Source: a virus
DNA: 37,552 nt
IMG/VR virus record: IMGVR_UViG_3300044631_000507
Coordinates: 1 to 37,552 of that record
Direction: 5' to 3' (one strand)
Position 1 is the first letter of the stretch; each line of letters starts with the position of its first letter. Shown here piece after piece: positions 14,010 to 30,931 of the stretch. The notes beneath the pieces are model-generated. The model saw only the letters and a program-made list of their open reading frames with translations, ran no database searches and was not told where the DNA came from. The translations under genes and the position numbers were made by a program.

Positions 14010-14040
14010 AAAAAGCCCGACTCTTTTGGTCGGGCTTTGT
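14010..14040 (-). terminator. Rho-independent terminator
   Basis: A 10-bp GC-rich stem, AAAGCCCGAC with GTCGGGCTTT (14012-14021 and 14029-14038), has a 7-base loop and is followed on the minus strand by a T run (CTTTTTC). It ends the hsp20, DUF3563-like and 79-residue gene transcript. Confidence 0.88.
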
Positions 14041-20118: not shown

Positions 20119-20147
20119 ATTGTACATGTCTATAGATTAAAAGTCAA
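20119..20147 (-). promoter_or_regulatory. Early sigma70-type promoter for the MoxR gene
   Basis: Minus strand: TTGACT (20142-20147), 17-base spacer, TACAAT (20119-20124). It lies between the terminator of the vWA gene and the MoxR start and drives the MoxR-to-45 gene set. Confidence 0.77.
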
Positions 20148-20172
20148 TACCCGACCATAAAGATCGGGTATT
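20146..20172 (-). terminator. Terminator-like hairpin after the vWA gene
   Basis: A 9-bp stem, AATACCCGA with TCGGGTATT (20164-20172 and 20146-20154), has a 9-base loop. On the minus strand it is followed by GACTTTTAAT, a short imperfect T run. It shares bases with the -35 element of the MoxR promoter. Confidence 0.65.
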
Positions 20173-25270: not shown

Positions 25271-25972
25271 TTACAGACCCTCCTTTCTAAAATATTTACA
25301 GTTGTTGAAATGCCATCTCTTAGCACCGACCTCTTTTGAACAATGAGGACAAACGTATTTTATACCTGCAGTATTGTGTACTACCTCGCCAGATATAAAT
25401 CTTGGGTCGTCTTTAGAGACATGAAAAATTCTACCATCTTTATCTCTAACAGTAACTTTACCTTTGTTTACGTGAACTAGTTCACCACTAACATATCGGG
25501 TATCATCTTTGCGTACTTGCATAGTATTGCCGTTTGAATCAACAACAGACACCATACCATACGTTTTAGATAAGACACCAAAATTGCCTTTTGATGGATT
25601 TTTTTCTAACATTCGTTTGGACGAAGCTTTTGCAAAGTTTGCAGCCCTTTCAGATTTCTCTGAAAGCCAGTGCATATCACCAGAATGGTTTGGTGGCTTA
25701 CCCCCTCCCAAAACCAGATTGTAGCACAATGGGTCTTGGAGTACAACCTCAGTCACTAGTTTAGATTCTAATGCAAGAGCGTCTTCATAGCAGTCAAAAA
25801 ACTCAATGATCTCTCTATTGAAATTTTCTTTACCATAATGCTTTATCGCATCACCAAGCCTAGTTCCTGACCCCAAATACCCATCATTTATGTTTTTTGT
25901 TGCATGCACACCAATGTAAAATTTACCGTTTATAAGGTTTGTTGTTTTGTAGACGAAGTAGTATTTTTTCAT
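25271..25972 (-). CDS. GIY-YIG homing endonuclease inserted at the start of gene 47
   Basis: 233 residues from the ATG at 25972 with AGGAGGCAAAA before it. The GIY-YIG domain is at the N-terminus: FVYKTTN, GKFYIGVHATKN, then Y-L-G-S-G-T and E-N-F-N-R-E-I. Two tandem copies of a beta module follow near 140-195, each of the form V-x-V-x-D-x-x-G-N/R, KDD-x-R-Y/F, SGE-x-VH. The end is a zinc finger, YVCPHC...HFNNC. It separates gene 55 from gene 47 and sits between a 34-bp direct repeat of the gene 47 start. Its 3' end carries the ribosome site for the rebuilt gene 47. Confidence 0.93.
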   Translation of the reverse strand: MKKYYFVYKTTNLINGKFYIGVHATKNINDGYLGSGTRLGDAIKHYGKENFNREIIEFFDCYEDALALESKLVTEVVLQDPLCYNLVLGGGKPPNHSGDMHWLSEKSERAANFAKASSKRMLEKNPSKGNFGVLSKTYGMVSVVDSNGNTMQVRKDDTRYVSGELVHVNKGKVTVRDKDGRIFHVSKDDPRFISGEVVHNTAGIKYVCPHCSKEVGAKRWHFNNCKYFRKEGL

Positions 25973-25982
25973 TTTTGCCTCC

Positions 25983-26004
25983 TGTCTACTATTTATAACA
26001 GACA
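25983..26004 (-). promoter_or_regulatory. Late promoter in a short hairpin before the GIY-YIG gene
   Basis: TATAAATA on the minus strand (plus-strand 25990-25997) is a perfect late promoter. It lies in the loop of a 5-bp stem TGTCT/AGACA whose second arm directly precedes the GGAGG ribosome site of the homing gene. Confidence 0.72.
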
Positions 26005-26012
26005 CTCTTTCT

Positions 26013-26046
26013 AATGGGTGTCGGTAATTATTGCAATCTTTGCCAT
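26013..26046 (-). repeat. Direct repeat copy A: original start of gene 47, now an 11-codon dead end
   Basis: ATG at 26046 overlaps the gene 55 stop (TAATG) and reads MAKIAIITDTH then TAG. It is the native gene 47 start, cut off after codon 11 by the homing gene insertion. It differs from copy B at one silent base (AAG against AAA). Confidence 0.9.
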
Positions 26047-26564
26047 TACTGATCCTCCATTAGCTTTTCCAATGAAGTAGTCTTTGCCTTCTTGGGCTTC
26101 TTTTCTAACTTCTTCTCAAATGCCTCATGGTCAAAGGAGTTGTTTGTCTGTACAAAGCTCATGAAGTTCTGTGATAGCTCTGCGTCATCAAACTCTTGCT
26201 GCTCAAATGCCTCGAAGGGCATATCTTGAATCAAACGATGCTTGATGTAGCTTTGGCGCTTCTCTCGTTGAATACGTCGAATGAAAGCAAAGTAGCAGAT
26301 CTGTGTGTAGTATGCAAAGGGATTGCTACTCTTTGCTGGATCAAAGTTTGTGAGGTACTGTAAGCAATTTTCAATGCCATCACTAACAAGCTCTTCTTTG
26401 TATGAGTAACCATAGAAATTTGGTCGTGATGCAAACCTCGTTGCAATGTCGAGAATGCACTTTCCAATGTACTCAGGCACACGAGCATCAGGATTTGTTT
26501 TTAGCTTTTCCTTGTAATCAATGATTGCTTGTAAGAATTGTTTGTTGTCAACATAATTTGCCAT
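26046..26564 (-). CDS. 55: Late-transcription sigma factor gp55
   Basis: 172 residues. NYVDNKQFLQAIIDYKEKL matches the T4 gp55 N-terminus (NYVNNKELLQAIIDWK); the core EELVSDGIENCLQYLTNFD and PFAYYTQICYFAFIRRIQRE is the sigma region-2 equivalent that reads TATAAATA. The C-terminal acidic/hydrophobic tail ends SLEKLMED, close to the clamp-binding tail that meets gp45. It explains the late promoters listed in this window. The start at 26564 has AAAGGAG; the longer reading begins with GTG and lies over the ribosome site. Confidence 0.95.
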   Translation of the reverse strand: MANYVDNKQFLQAIIDYKEKLKTNPDARVPEYIGKCILDIATRFASRPNFYGYSYKEELVSDGIENCLQYLTNFDPAKSSNPFAYYTQICYFAFIRRIQREKRQSYIKHRLIQDMPFEAFEQQEFDDAELSQNFMSFVQTNNSFDHEAFEKKLEKKPKKAKTTSLEKLMEDQ

Positions 26565-26582: not shown

Positions 26583-26610
26583 AGTATAACACCATATAAC
26601 AGATAGTCAA
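26583..26610 (-). promoter_or_regulatory. Early sigma70-type promoter for gene 55
   Basis: Minus strand: TTGACT (26605-26610), 16-base spacer, TATACT (26583-26588). It lies just upstream of the gene 55 ribosome site, so 55 can be made before any late transcription. Confidence 0.72.
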
Positions 26611-26625
26611 AGATAGACCAAAAGA

Positions 26626-26654
26626 TTGACAGGCTTTCGCCGCTGTCCTATAAT
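26626..26654 (+). promoter_or_regulatory. Consensus sigma70 promoter antisense to uvsW
   Basis: Plus strand: TTGACA (26626-26631), exactly 17 bases, TATAAT (26649-26654): a perfect consensus. It points right, into the 3' end of uvsW, which is on the minus strand. The spacer holds the inverted pair GACAG/CTGTC. No gene with a ribosome site follows on the plus strand until the homing gene at 28323. Confidence 0.72.
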
Positions 26655-26677
26655 CACCGTGTACCTGGATGATGATA

Positions 26678-28177
26678 CTAAAACTTAATTGTTTTGATAT
26701 CGAATGTGAACTGTTCGGCTTGATACGTCTCGATACGTTCCTTAAGGTGCTTCATTGTATGGTTCAACTTTGACTTTATAGAAAAGTTGTCTGCTATATC
26801 ATACAGTTTGCAAGACTCTTTACCTTCCTTAAGACGCAATCCTCTACCAATAGACTGTAGATTCCGTATCTTACTCTTTGTTGGACTAGCAAAAATTATG
26901 TTCTCAATGCTGGGAATGTTGATTCCAGTTGATGTTGTTCCATAAGAACAGATAACAATTGCGTCATCATGTGTATCTAGTACCTTACGAATACGTTCTC
27001 TTTCCTCTGTGGTTACTTCGCCTGATATGTAGAACAAAGGTCTTTCACCACAAAGTTCTTTTGCTATGTCATATAAAGGCTTGCCTTGCTTCTCCACGAA
27101 CTGAAACAGTATAAGAGTGTTACCCTTTGAAGCCTTTGCAAGTTTGACTATAAATCTGTTTCTCTTTTCGTTTGAAACAATGTAGTCAATCTCTTTCTGG
27201 TAGTCGGCACCCTTAAGAAGTTTTCTTGTCTCCTCGTCATAATCTAGTAGTAGGCACTTGATGTTTAGTTTTACTACCTGATTAGCATCCATCAACTCCT
27301 TTGTTGTTATCACCCGATACACGGGACCAAAGGATCCCTCTAGTGATAACTTAGACACCTTAGCATCTTGTATTGTACCTGTAGTACCCAGACGATATCG
27401 TGCTCGAATGAGCTTAGAGGAGATTTGTTGCAACGAGTTTGACGCAAACCTATGCGCTTCGTCACCAATGTACACATCCCACTCTTTGTAGAAGTCCAAC
27501 GCCTTCTTGTTCTTTGTCATGGAATGGATTGACTGCCAGGTTGTTATGAGAACAGGTTTGTCTGTTTCTTTATCTTTACCCGAGTACAATTGATGACAAA
27601 ACTCGTCTGCATCCCAATCATCTTCTGATGCGTAATCTTCAAAGTCACTGAACATCTGTGATACCAATGATGTTGTTGGTACCATGAGTACAATGCGTCT
27701 GCCAAATTCGAGATGCCAACGAACAAAGACATAAATGATCGCGGACTTGCCCGAGCTAGTTGGGGATAAAGCCAACATTCGTTCTTTGTTAATTGCTCTG
27801 TGTATTGCGTCTACTTGGTAGTCCCGCAGCTCAATCTTCTTGCCCTTAGTGTGTATATTGAGGCAATCAATGAAATGTCGTACTTCTTCTAAAGACACTT
27901 TCGAGTCAGAATGTACTTCTTCAAAAGACGATTTGCACTCGTAACCGTTGTCCTTTGCAAACTTCTGTACGTACTCAAGCAACCCAACAGGCAAAGTCTT
28001 TCGGTGTATGTCAAAAAGTTTGGCTTTTCCATCCCAGATTTTTGCCTTGAATGTTGGCATAAACTGATGCCCAGGAACGGGAAAGGTGAAGAAGTCGCAC
28101 AGTTCCTGCTCTATGCCAAAGTCATCTGATGTTACTTGTAATGTTGCTTCGTTCAGCTTGGAGATCACTAGACTCAT
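26678..28177 (-). CDS. uvsW: UvsW SF2 helicase
   Basis: 499 residues, T4 length. The N-terminal 110 residues are the small substrate domain (FPVPGHQFMPTFKAKIWDGK). Motif I is SPTSSGKS near 139-146, motif II GDEAHRF near 239, motif III LGTTGTI near 265, motif VI QSIGRGLRLKEG near 447. It unwinds R-loops and regresses or branch-migrates forks and junctions, shifting T4 from origin to recombination-driven replication. It is made late in T4; here a late-promoter-like CTAAATA and hairpin precede it. Confidence 0.96.
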   Translation of the reverse strand: MSLVISKLNEATLQVTSDDFGIEQELCDFFTFPVPGHQFMPTFKAKIWDGKAKLFDIHRKTLPVGLLEYVQKFAKDNGYECKSSFEEVHSDSKVSLEEVRHFIDCLNIHTKGKKIELRDYQVDAIHRAINKERMLALSPTSSGKSAIIYVFVRWHLEFGRRIVLMVPTTSLVSQMFSDFEDYASEDDWDADEFCHQLYSGKDKETDKPVLITTWQSIHSMTKNKKALDFYKEWDVYIGDEAHRFASNSLQQISSKLIRARYRLGTTGTIQDAKVSKLSLEGSFGPVYRVITTKELMDANQVVKLNIKCLLLDYDEETRKLLKGADYQKEIDYIVSNEKRNRFIVKLAKASKGNTLILFQFVEKQGKPLYDIAKELCGERPLFYISGEVTTEERERIRKVLDTHDDAIVICSYGTTSTGINIPSIENIIFASPTKSKIRNLQSIGRGLRLKEGKESCKLYDIADNFSIKSKLNHTMKHLKERIETYQAEQFTFDIKTIKF

Positions 28178-28179
28178 GA

Positions 28180-28213
28180 AAATACCCAGAATTTTTACAC
28201 TCTGGGTATTTAG
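28180..28213 (-). promoter_or_regulatory. Hairpin with late-promoter-like element at the uvsW start; also bidirectional terminator-like
   Basis: An 11-bp perfect stem (28180-28190 and 28201-28211, 10-base loop) ends a few bases before the uvsW ATG. The minus strand reads ACTAAATA across the first arm (plus-strand 28206-28213), keeping the TAAATA core of late promoters. There is no ordinary ribosome site outside the hairpin. The GC core with A/T flanks could also stop transcripts from either side. Confidence 0.6.
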
Positions 28214-28250
28214 TCTACGTTCCTGCCACGAATTTTGAAAACTAGTATTT

Positions 28251-28258: not shown

Positions 28259-28335
28259 GAAATGAACCTCGCGGGACTGCAATCCCCAGGCTCTCTAGTC
28301 AACACCACTAAAAGGAGTCTTTATGACCAGCTCAT
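28251..28335 (+). repeat. Inverted repeat, left copy: shared homing-gene leader
   Basis: These 85 bases (late promoter, untranslated leader and first codons) are identical in reverse complement to 30760-30844. Identity ends a few codons into the reading frames, where silent differences begin. Confidence 0.92.
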
Positions 28336-28997
28336 TTATTTATTATGTATATGCTTATATACGATCAAAAGATACAGCAACTGCAAAAGCCGGAACACCA
28401 TATTACATTGGAAAAGGAAAAGGTAACCGTGCATATAGAAAACATAGTGTACCTGTACCCAATAACAGAAACTATATAATTTTTTTAGAAACTAACTTAT
28501 CGGAAGTTGGTGCGTTAGCCTTAGAGAGATTTTATTTGAGATGGTGGGGTTGCAAACACTCTGGTGGAATTTTACGGAACATTATTGATGGTTATGGCTC
28601 AGGTGCTACTAATGTTGGGCAACACATATCAGAAACAAAATCTTCTAAAGAATGGAGAGAAGGTCCTGGTAAAATTGCAGGTGAAAAAATTTCAAAAGCA
28701 AAATTGGGTGTTAAGTTTACCGAAGAGCACAGGAGGAAAATTAGTGAATACCAAAAGAATAGAATTGTTTCTGATGTAACTAAAGAAAAAATGTCAAAGT
28801 CAAGATCAGGTATAAAGCAGTCAAACTCTCATAAAGAAAACATCCGCAAAGCAAACATAGGTCTTAAACTAATATCTAAAAAAGATAATCCACTAGAACG
28901 AAAAAAGGTCCCTGCCAATGAACTTCAAACATTTCTTTCTAATGGGTGGGTCCTAGGTGCACAAGGAACATCTCACTTGTCATTACGCAAATCTTAA
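28323..28997 (+). CDS. GIY-YIG homing endonuclease (only plus-strand gene)
   Basis: 224 residues with ribosome site AAAAGGAG. GIY-YIG motifs: YYVYAYIR at 7-14 and [14 protein letters not shown] near 25-38, with [10 protein letters not shown] and RWWGCKH completing the fold. The C-terminal half is a string of basic NUMOD3-like modules ([25 protein letters not shown] and two more). It lies between uvsW and uvsY, opposite to all neighbours, and its last four bases overlap the uvsY end. Its leader and N-terminus match the gene at 30065-30772. Confidence 0.92.
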
Positions 28998-29432: not shown

Positions 29433-29463
29433 GTTACAATACGACTAAAAATTGTATTGTAAC
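29433..29463 (-). promoter_or_regulatory. Hairpin abutting the uvsY start codon
   Basis: A perfect 10-bp stem (GTTACAATAC and GTATTGTAAC) with an 11-base loop ends one base before ATG. It contains no late promoter and no T tract, so it is neither the masking device nor a terminator seen elsewhere. It may control uvsY translation. Confidence 0.55.
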
Positions 29464-29469
29464 AGACAA

Positions 29470-30003
29470 CTAGGTTAAGTCAAGTTTGAAATAAGAATAC
29501 TCTAAAGTTAAACTTGCTGTTGCGTATGGCACATCGGTGTTAGTTGAGCTAAATTCCACACCACCAAGTTGAGTGGGATAACAATCAACAAATGAGAAGG
29601 TTCTTACGGGTGTGTTATTTGGACCAAGAACAATTAGCCTTGCGTCGGAATAGTTGTTTGCAAGTTCTGATGATTCTGAAAAACCTCTCAACATGTTCTC
29701 GGTTGTGTATTGAGTGGAAGTCTCAGGAAATCCCAGTCCCTTCATCCAATTGTAAACTTCAACCCAGTTGTTCATCTGCCCATCAATAGCAAACTGCAAC
29801 TGTAAGTCACTAAACTCAAGTCTCTCTGATGGGATCTTGATAACAGATAGGGGGGTTGGAGTTTCTAAACCAGCTAAACTAATGCTGGGTAGGTTTACTT
29901 GTTGGCAGAAGAAGGTTACCTTTGGTAAGCGTTCAATGCTAAGAATGAACCCATTAGGGCTCAAGAAATTAAGATCACTTGAAGGACAAGAAAGTGTAGC
30001 CAT
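29470..30003 (-). CDS. Tail-tube-like virion structural protein
   Basis: 177 residues. The layout NGFILSIERLPKVTFFCQQVNLPSIS at 17-42, then PSERLEFSDLQLQFAIDG, WVEVYNWMKGLGFP and a C-terminal strand series ending ASLTLEYSYFKL is that of the gp19-type tube fold (gp19: FQVEISYLG, ALPAGI, WTVTVMND, FEVTLALDYWE). A gene at this place after 23 in related phages is sometimes called gp3, the tail completion protein; I cannot exclude that. It has its own late-type promoter (ACTAAATA) and ribosome site GTAAAGGAAA. Confidence 0.72.
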   Translation of the reverse strand: MATLSCPSSDLNFLSPNGFILSIERLPKVTFFCQQVNLPSISLAGLETPTPLSVIKIPSERLEFSDLQLQFAIDGQMNNWVEVYNWMKGLGFPETSTQYTTENMLRGFSESSELANNYSDARLIVLGPNNTPVRTFSFVDCYPTQLGGVEFSSTNTDVPYATASLTLEYSYFKLDLT

Positions 30004-30064: not shown

Positions 30065-30772
30065 CTAGCTTGCGCTAGTATCGGAGTCTAAGCTCCTATT
30101 AGTATTTATTCTTTTCAGCCCGCCAAGTACCCATCCTTCGCCCGGATGTTCTTTGCATCGTTTTTCAATGACACCGTTGTTGTATGCTTTAGAACCTAGT
30201 TTGGCTTTTGCTGCTGCTTGCGATGCTTTTATTGCACTTTGGTATTGTTTTTCTGATTTAGTGTATGACACTTTTTTCTTACCAGACAAAGCAACAGAAC
30301 GTTTTTTGTTAGTTACAGCCTTGATGTATTCAACATCATCTTTTGTTTTGTATGGTAGCCAACCTTGCGACAAAAATTCTTCGATCAAAGGATCGCTCAA
30401 TCTTATTCTTTTAGAGCAGTTCAAGAAGTACAACGTAATAGACTTCAAATAAAGTTTTGCTCTTCTTTGTTTTTCTCTTGTTTCTTGTGTTACAACCATT
30501 CCAGTAGATCCTTCGCCACCGTCGGTTTTATTTTGTAAGATTCCAGTTTTATTGTTTTTTCTACCAAACCACCTTATGTATCTTCTTTCCAAAGAAAGAG
30601 CTCCTATCTCAGTAAGATTACTTTCCAAGATCACAATTCGTTGTTTTGGTGGCAAAAATATACCAGGATGGTTTGTAGAGTACATTCGTTTGCCCTTCCC
30701 TTTTCCAATATAATAAGGGGTTCCATCAGATCTGATGTAGGCATAAACGTAATAAATAGATGAGCTGGTCAT
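30065..30772 (-). CDS. GIY-YIG homing endonuclease downstream of the capsid gene
   Basis: 235 residues, ribosome site [28 protein letters not shown] at 7-26 gives the GIY and YIG motifs without the ten-residue insert of its partner at 28323. [18 protein letters not shown] continues the fold. The C-terminal part has [22 protein letters not shown] and ends with [11 protein letters not shown], a tail also present in part in the partner gene. It lies between the capsid terminator and the tail-tube-like gene, with its own late promoter and terminator. Confidence 0.92.
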
Positions 30773-30844: not shown

Positions 30845-30867
30845 AGAACGTTATGTTCAAGCAATAG

Positions 30868-30891
30868 AAAACCGGCTCATGAGCCGGTTTT
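30868..30891 (-). terminator. Terminator after major capsid gene 23
   Basis: A 24-base perfect palindrome (stem AAAACCGGCT/AGCCGGTTTT around CATG) gives T runs on both strands. A second small hairpin GGCTA/TAGCC follows at 30894-30907. Confidence 0.9.
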
Positions 30892-30931
30892 CTGGCTATT
30901 TCTAGCCTATTTCATTCAAAAAGTATGTGTT

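Follow-up and report, generated by a model that had tools for sequence, protein, structure and literature searches.

The window analyzed here is a 37,552-nucleotide stretch of viral DNA (IMG/VR record IMGVR_UViG_3300044631_000507, positions 1 to 37,552), and the locus of interest lies between uvsW and gene 55. The uvsW gene (26678-28177, minus strand) encodes a 499-aa R-loop and branch helicase of the T4 UvsW kind, identified by its similarity to annotated UvsW proteins and sharing ~44-46% identity with those of Kyanoviridae (cyanophages, Pelagibacter and Methylophilales phages). Gene 55 (26046-26564, minus strand), the late sigma factor gene, starts with an ATG at 26564 that follows AAGGAG. 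Its sigma70-type promoter (26583-26610, minus strand; TTGACT-16-TATACT) matches the consensus at 10/12 positions and has a TG preceding its -10 hexamer. Another sigma70-type promoter (29456-29483, minus strand; TTGACT-16-TACAAT) lies upstream of uvsY and would probably supply early transcription that runs towards uvsW. Scans of the window for tRNAs and Rfam families returned no matches.

Three GIY-YIG-like ORFs (25271-26005, minus; 28323-28997, plus; 30065-30772, minus) are found around these genes, each with a late-type TATAAATA just upstream (25997, minus; 28251, plus; 30844, minus). Because neither contig L006 nor the near-identical contig L002 has the first two, and the last two share an identical leader, these ORFs look mobile. 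In the T4 record the GIY-YIG gene segE also adjoins uvsW. Strong symmetric GC stems at 20146-20172 (minus), 14012-14038 (plus) and 30865-30894 (plus) are probably bidirectional terminators.

A consensus promoter pointing into uvsW

Between uvsW and gene 55 lies TTGACAGGCTTTCGCCGCTGTCCTATAAT (26626-26654, plus strand), in which a TTGACA -35 hexamer (26626-26631) and a TATAAT -10 hexamer (26649-26654) are separated by 17 bp, within the 16-18 bp typical of sigma70-type promoters. A promoter scan identified it as the sole 12/12 sigma70-type site in the window. This match exceeds chance, as dinucleotide shuffles (n = 100) gave an expectation of 0.02 such matches per window and only 2 of the 100 shuffles contained one. 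All remaining sigma70-type sites on the plus strand match at 9/12 or fewer positions. The original prediction had described this site as the best promoter of the window and the only early one on the plus strand, placed back to back with the gene 55 promoter and reading across uvsW; the counts bear out its rank on both scores, and the coordinates confirm its arrangement and its direction into uvsW.

The predicted start point (~26661, GTGTAC...) falls in a region spanning 26655-26674, 17 nt from the uvsW stop codon. By position, a transcript from this start would run opposite to uvsW and overlap it, making the predicted RNA cis-antisense, with a putative path of 26661-28177, along which a terminator search was negative. 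Five close relatives (contigs L002-L006, 92-100% identical in this region) keep both hexamers unchanged. In L006, the most diverged of the five (92% identical), the hexamers of the antisense, gene 55 and uvsY promoters are all intact and the spacers of all three have changed. The same contig shows zero changes between the midpoint of the antisense spacer and the uvsW stop codon, so that the start-point region is invariant. Its sequence and its conservation among relatives suggest a functional early promoter that reads antisense to uvsW.

Conservation and anchoring among T4-like phages

To count the element in more distant phages, it was defined as a promoter of at least 11/12 matches that points away from gene 55 and lies in the gap before that gene. 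In a first set of 25 loci, which includes a few near-duplicates, 19 carry the element within 200 bp before gp55, against a background of 4 antisense sites in 232 kb elsewhere. A second set of gp55 loci, fetched independently, contains it within 250 bp of gp55 at 34 of 76 non-redundant loci, plus additional displaced copies, with 13 antisense sites in the 325 kb of remaining sequence. The background rate of such antisense promoters is ~1 per 25 kb. On a gp55 tree the element occurs in 76 of 108 rows, spread across deep branches, a count that takes in 10/12 copies judged acceptable by eye and sites as far as 850 bp away; chance hits at the background rate could account for ~3-4 of the 108 rows. 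No recognizable element is present at about a third of the gp55 loci, Melnitz among them.

Pelagibacter, Synechococcus, Prochlorococcus and Sinorhizobium phages are all represented among the examined carriers. The element is present in HTVC008M, Mosig, Syn9, P-SSM2, DSL-LC03 and S-SM2, and at 11-12/12 in S-PM2, S-SM1, S-RIM2, S-WAM1, P-TIM68, ACG-2014f and Sinorhizobium phage phiM7; the P-HM2 copy (NC_015284; 120,716-120,744, minus strand; predicted start near 120,709) matches at 10/12, and the gp55 locus of Melnitz has no good match. In the 177-kb Syn9 genome no reverse-strand site other than the element (NC_008296; 123705-123733, minus strand; predicted start near 123,698) reaches 11/12 with a 17-bp spacer, whereas 16 forward sites do; in S-SM2 the element is the only reverse match at a 16-bp spacer. 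These comparisons indicate that conservation of the predicted antisense promoter among the sampled T4-like phages goes far beyond chance. Since related marine and freshwater viruses keep it in the same spot, it very probably matters. As a separate observation, a second TTGACA lies ~10-13 bp downstream of the antisense -35, within the spacer, at loci L009, L013, L076, L090, L107, L111, L120, L121 and L125.

The position of the element follows the gene upstream of gene 55. Most copies place the -10 hexamer 15-50 nt beyond the upstream stop codon, both where the upstream gene is uvsW (24 nt in the window, 24 in L014, 23 in L022, 26 in L097 and 40 in L055) and where it is T4-GC 139 (GC139), which encodes 140 aa (17-48 nt for most). 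In L104, L105, L106 and L111, whose gene 55 is displaced (300-820 bp), the element remains beside the upstream stop codon, and gene 55 was accordingly rejected as the anchor. Together, the displaced copies and the short distance from stop codon to -10 tie the element to the uvsY-uvsW(-GC139) unit, at its 3' end. In many relatives the predicted antisense RNA would reach uvsW only after covering GC139, which means that its first target can be a gene other than uvsW.

Anchoring at the end of this unit argues against the view that the element is a by-product, without function of its own, of a gene 55 promoter made bidirectional by symmetric promoter elements. Bidirectional promoters are common in bacteria (PMC12825309), and in several cyanophages a single TTGTCAA serves both the sense and the antisense -35. 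In the window, however, the two -35 elements are separate, and many relatives combine a perfect antisense promoter with no good sense promoter; the shared elements and inseparable directions that define bidirectionality by symmetry are therefore not found at this locus. Copies that stay at the end of the upstream gene when gene 55 lies 300-820 bp away largely refute the by-product reading, which we consider decidedly improbable.

The predicted RNA, the uvsW hairpin and the start-point dyad

No ORF with a ribosome-binding site follows the antisense start in the window. Among the relatives scanned outside the phiM7 group, no reverse ORF with a ribosome-binding site exceeds 27 codons, and a few very short ones occur. 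The element could instead be the promoter of a small reverse-strand gene, either lost in most lineages or too short to see, and Sinorhizobium phage phiM7 does have a 50-aa ORF with a ribosome-binding site after the element, with the same protein encoded in phiM12 and phiM19. We regard such an origin as very improbable, given the lack of comparable ORFs in the window and in the other relatives scanned, and given a start point only 10-40 nt from the opposing stop codon, which leaves no room for a gene. The phiM7 ORF (L140, 2111-2263, minus strand) is driven by the same promoter-plus-dyad element, and its protein was found only in phiM7, phiM12 and phiM19. A search of 2.5 kb of the antisense strand identified no intrinsic terminator in the window and isolated matches in two relatives, so that no defined 3' end emerged for the RNA. 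With neither a notable ORF nor a terminator, the predicted RNA should be non-coding and have no defined length.

The original prediction held that the antisense RNA could end at an inverted repeat just before the uvsW start codon (28180-28211), which was evaluated by RNA folding against shuffled sequences and by comparison with relatives. As plus-strand RNA, 28165-28225 folds far better than its shuffles (z -5.6). On the plus strand, the direction of the antisense RNA, no U-tract comes after the stem, so the hairpin does not have the form of an intrinsic terminator, a GC stem with a U-tract behind it. The terminator scan did not call it, its loop being longer than that scan allows, and it is absent at uvsW in relatives outside the species group. 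These three results weaken the terminator claim, which we do not retain, and the last of them led us to reject the hairpin as a conserved part of the element. On the minus strand the hairpin lies directly before the uvsW start codon, its predicted fold reaches over the following codons, and 28150-28245 folds far better than shuffles (z -4.2). It is more likely a structure of the uvsW mRNA leader, which fits better than a terminator, and perhaps one that controls uvsW translation. Confined to this species group, the minus-strand RNA structure of 28150-28245 is very stable and has the uvsW start codon inside it. The stem is closely preceded by an AGGAA, whose distance to the start codon might be shortened by folding.

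Many elements contain an inverted repeat directly after the -10, with variable arms around a TGT-like center (for example AAGGTT-ATC-AACCTT, GGACTA-TG-TAGTCC and AACGG-TGT-CCGTT). Of 59 elements, 14 have a perfect stem of at least 5 bp, compared with 1.2 in shuffles, and such stems are present in 25% of strong elements versus 5% of other promoters in the same sequences. All dyad centers (stems of at least 4 bp) fall 6-8.5 nt after the -10. In the window's start-point region (26655-26674) the dyad is weak. Because the left arm of such a dyad would lie outside the RNA, it is not a simple 5' hairpin. Stems with only G:T wobble pairs number 7 and those with only A:C pairs 0, where shuffles expect 2.95 and 1.1, a suggestive lean to the antisense strand that falls short of significance.

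An opposing promoter and dyad at the end of an operon might also end transcription or insulate it, keeping polymerase that leaves uvsW from entering gene 55. The element is indeed anchored just past the stop codon, the dyad adjoins that codon, and the scan called no terminator-like site in the window's minus-strand gap after uvsW. Polymerase footprints, however, suggest that a promoter-bound polymerase would block upstream of the stop codon, and several relatives have no sense promoter for gene 55 and seem to need read-through. Insulation is, on balance, a quite improbable function.

A possible role in UvsW timing

Promoter quality, position, deep conservation, anchoring at the 3' end and the lack of an ORF are features that can be read from the sequences compared here. 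We tentatively propose, with a confidence that falls somewhat short of even, that the element is a cis-antisense promoter active early, whose effect until the late switch is to silence uvsW or interfere with it. Silencing of the uvsW end appears to be the most economical reading, and holding UvsW back is a plausible purpose. A brake on uvsW would make sense here, because the sigma70-like promoter of uvsY would send early transcription towards uvsW. In this mechanism a host sigma70 promoter located shortly after the final stop codon of the uvsY-uvsW(-GC139) unit would point back into the unit, and early in infection host RNA polymerase would make a non-coding antisense RNA from it. Either this RNA or head-on polymerase traffic would block productive transcription of the uvsW end, while uvsY and gene 55 would be made from their own early promoters. 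Once gp55 takes over the polymerase, the antisense promoter would fall quiet and uvsW would be expressed, and the UvsW produced would then remove origin R-loops as in T4. Promoter activity, its restriction to early infection and the repression of uvsW are what we infer.

Several observations count against silencing. First, GC139 rather than uvsW is covered first in many relatives. Second, about a third of the loci have no recognizable element. Third, no terminator was found, and the phiM7 group uses this element to drive a 50-aa ORF. Finally, the start-point dyad is left unexplained by a model of uvsW silencing.

The main rival to silencing is a T4-like R-loop origin, in which the RNA would prime leading-strand synthesis, UvsW would later remove it, and the antisense orientation would be incidental. 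T4 expresses UvsW from a late promoter, and the protein unwinds R-loops at origins, which consist of middle-mode promoters with an unwinding element; oriF and oriG are such origins of ~100 bp and are shut off by UvsW (PMC3016281). The annotated T4 oriF transcript heads towards the uvsW end, a single origin was predicted for Syn9 (PMC2984593), on whose reverse strand the element is unique, and the predicted RNA has no ORF. Set against this, there is on average no AT-rich unwinding element downstream, mean stability being close to the locus average, and at the Syn9 site there is no GC-skew switch, the skew being weak and following gene direction. A promoter such as T4-type origins have is present, and so is the gene neighborhood, but the promoter is of the sigma70 rather than the MotA type. 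We judge an R-loop origin to be unlikely. A broader version, distinctly unlikely in our estimate, is that a sigma70 promoter and start-point dyad form the principal R-loop origin of Kyanoviridae-like phages, with an untranslated RNA that both primes replication and restrains UvsW, which would otherwise dismantle it. If true, one RNA would couple the switch from origin to recombination to the switch from early to late.

Antisense promoters are usually dismissed as noise. T4-like phages that have diverged deeply keep this one at one spot, and Syn9 has no other strong promoter on that strand. Because its neighbors encode the late sigma factor and the helicase that ends origin replication in T4, the element offers a handle on UvsW timing and the start of replication, and a testable one in abundant aquatic phages. 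Strand-specific RNA sequencing has been published for P-HM2 (PMC5082946). The literature searched, whose scope did not extend to the 2016 Syn9 transcriptome paper, contains no report of the promoter or its RNA.

The element can be set beside several known systems. The OOP RNA of phage lambda comes from a host-sigma promoter antisense to the 3' end of an upstream gene, beside replication genes. OOP is a short, terminated RNA, whereas no terminator was found for the present element. In T4, the promoter of oriF/ori(uvsY) likewise fires towards the 3' end of uvsW, and the RNA at this site forms an R-loop that is removed by UvsW, a late protein (PMC3016281). The oriF transcript is MotA-dependent and codes for UvsY, and T4 uvsY is convergent with uvsW. 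In the window, by contrast, uvsY and uvsW run in the same direction, a separate sigma70 promoter would make a predicted non-coding RNA, and the unwinding element of a T4 origin was looked for and not found. A cis-antisense non-coding RNA is also known in a Kyanoviridae phage, namely CfrI of cyanophage S-PM2, which is ~225 nt long, lies by psbA and a homing endonuclease gene, and was detected experimentally (PMC2984593, PMC5931967). Unlike CfrI, the present element lies at uvsW and gene 55 and is predicted from sequence. Bidirectional sigma70 promoters (PMC12825309) similarly form divergent pairs, and a shared -35 occurs in cyanophages. Unlike such promoters, the two in the window use separate elements, and the antisense copy persists in relatives whose sense promoter is missing or has moved.
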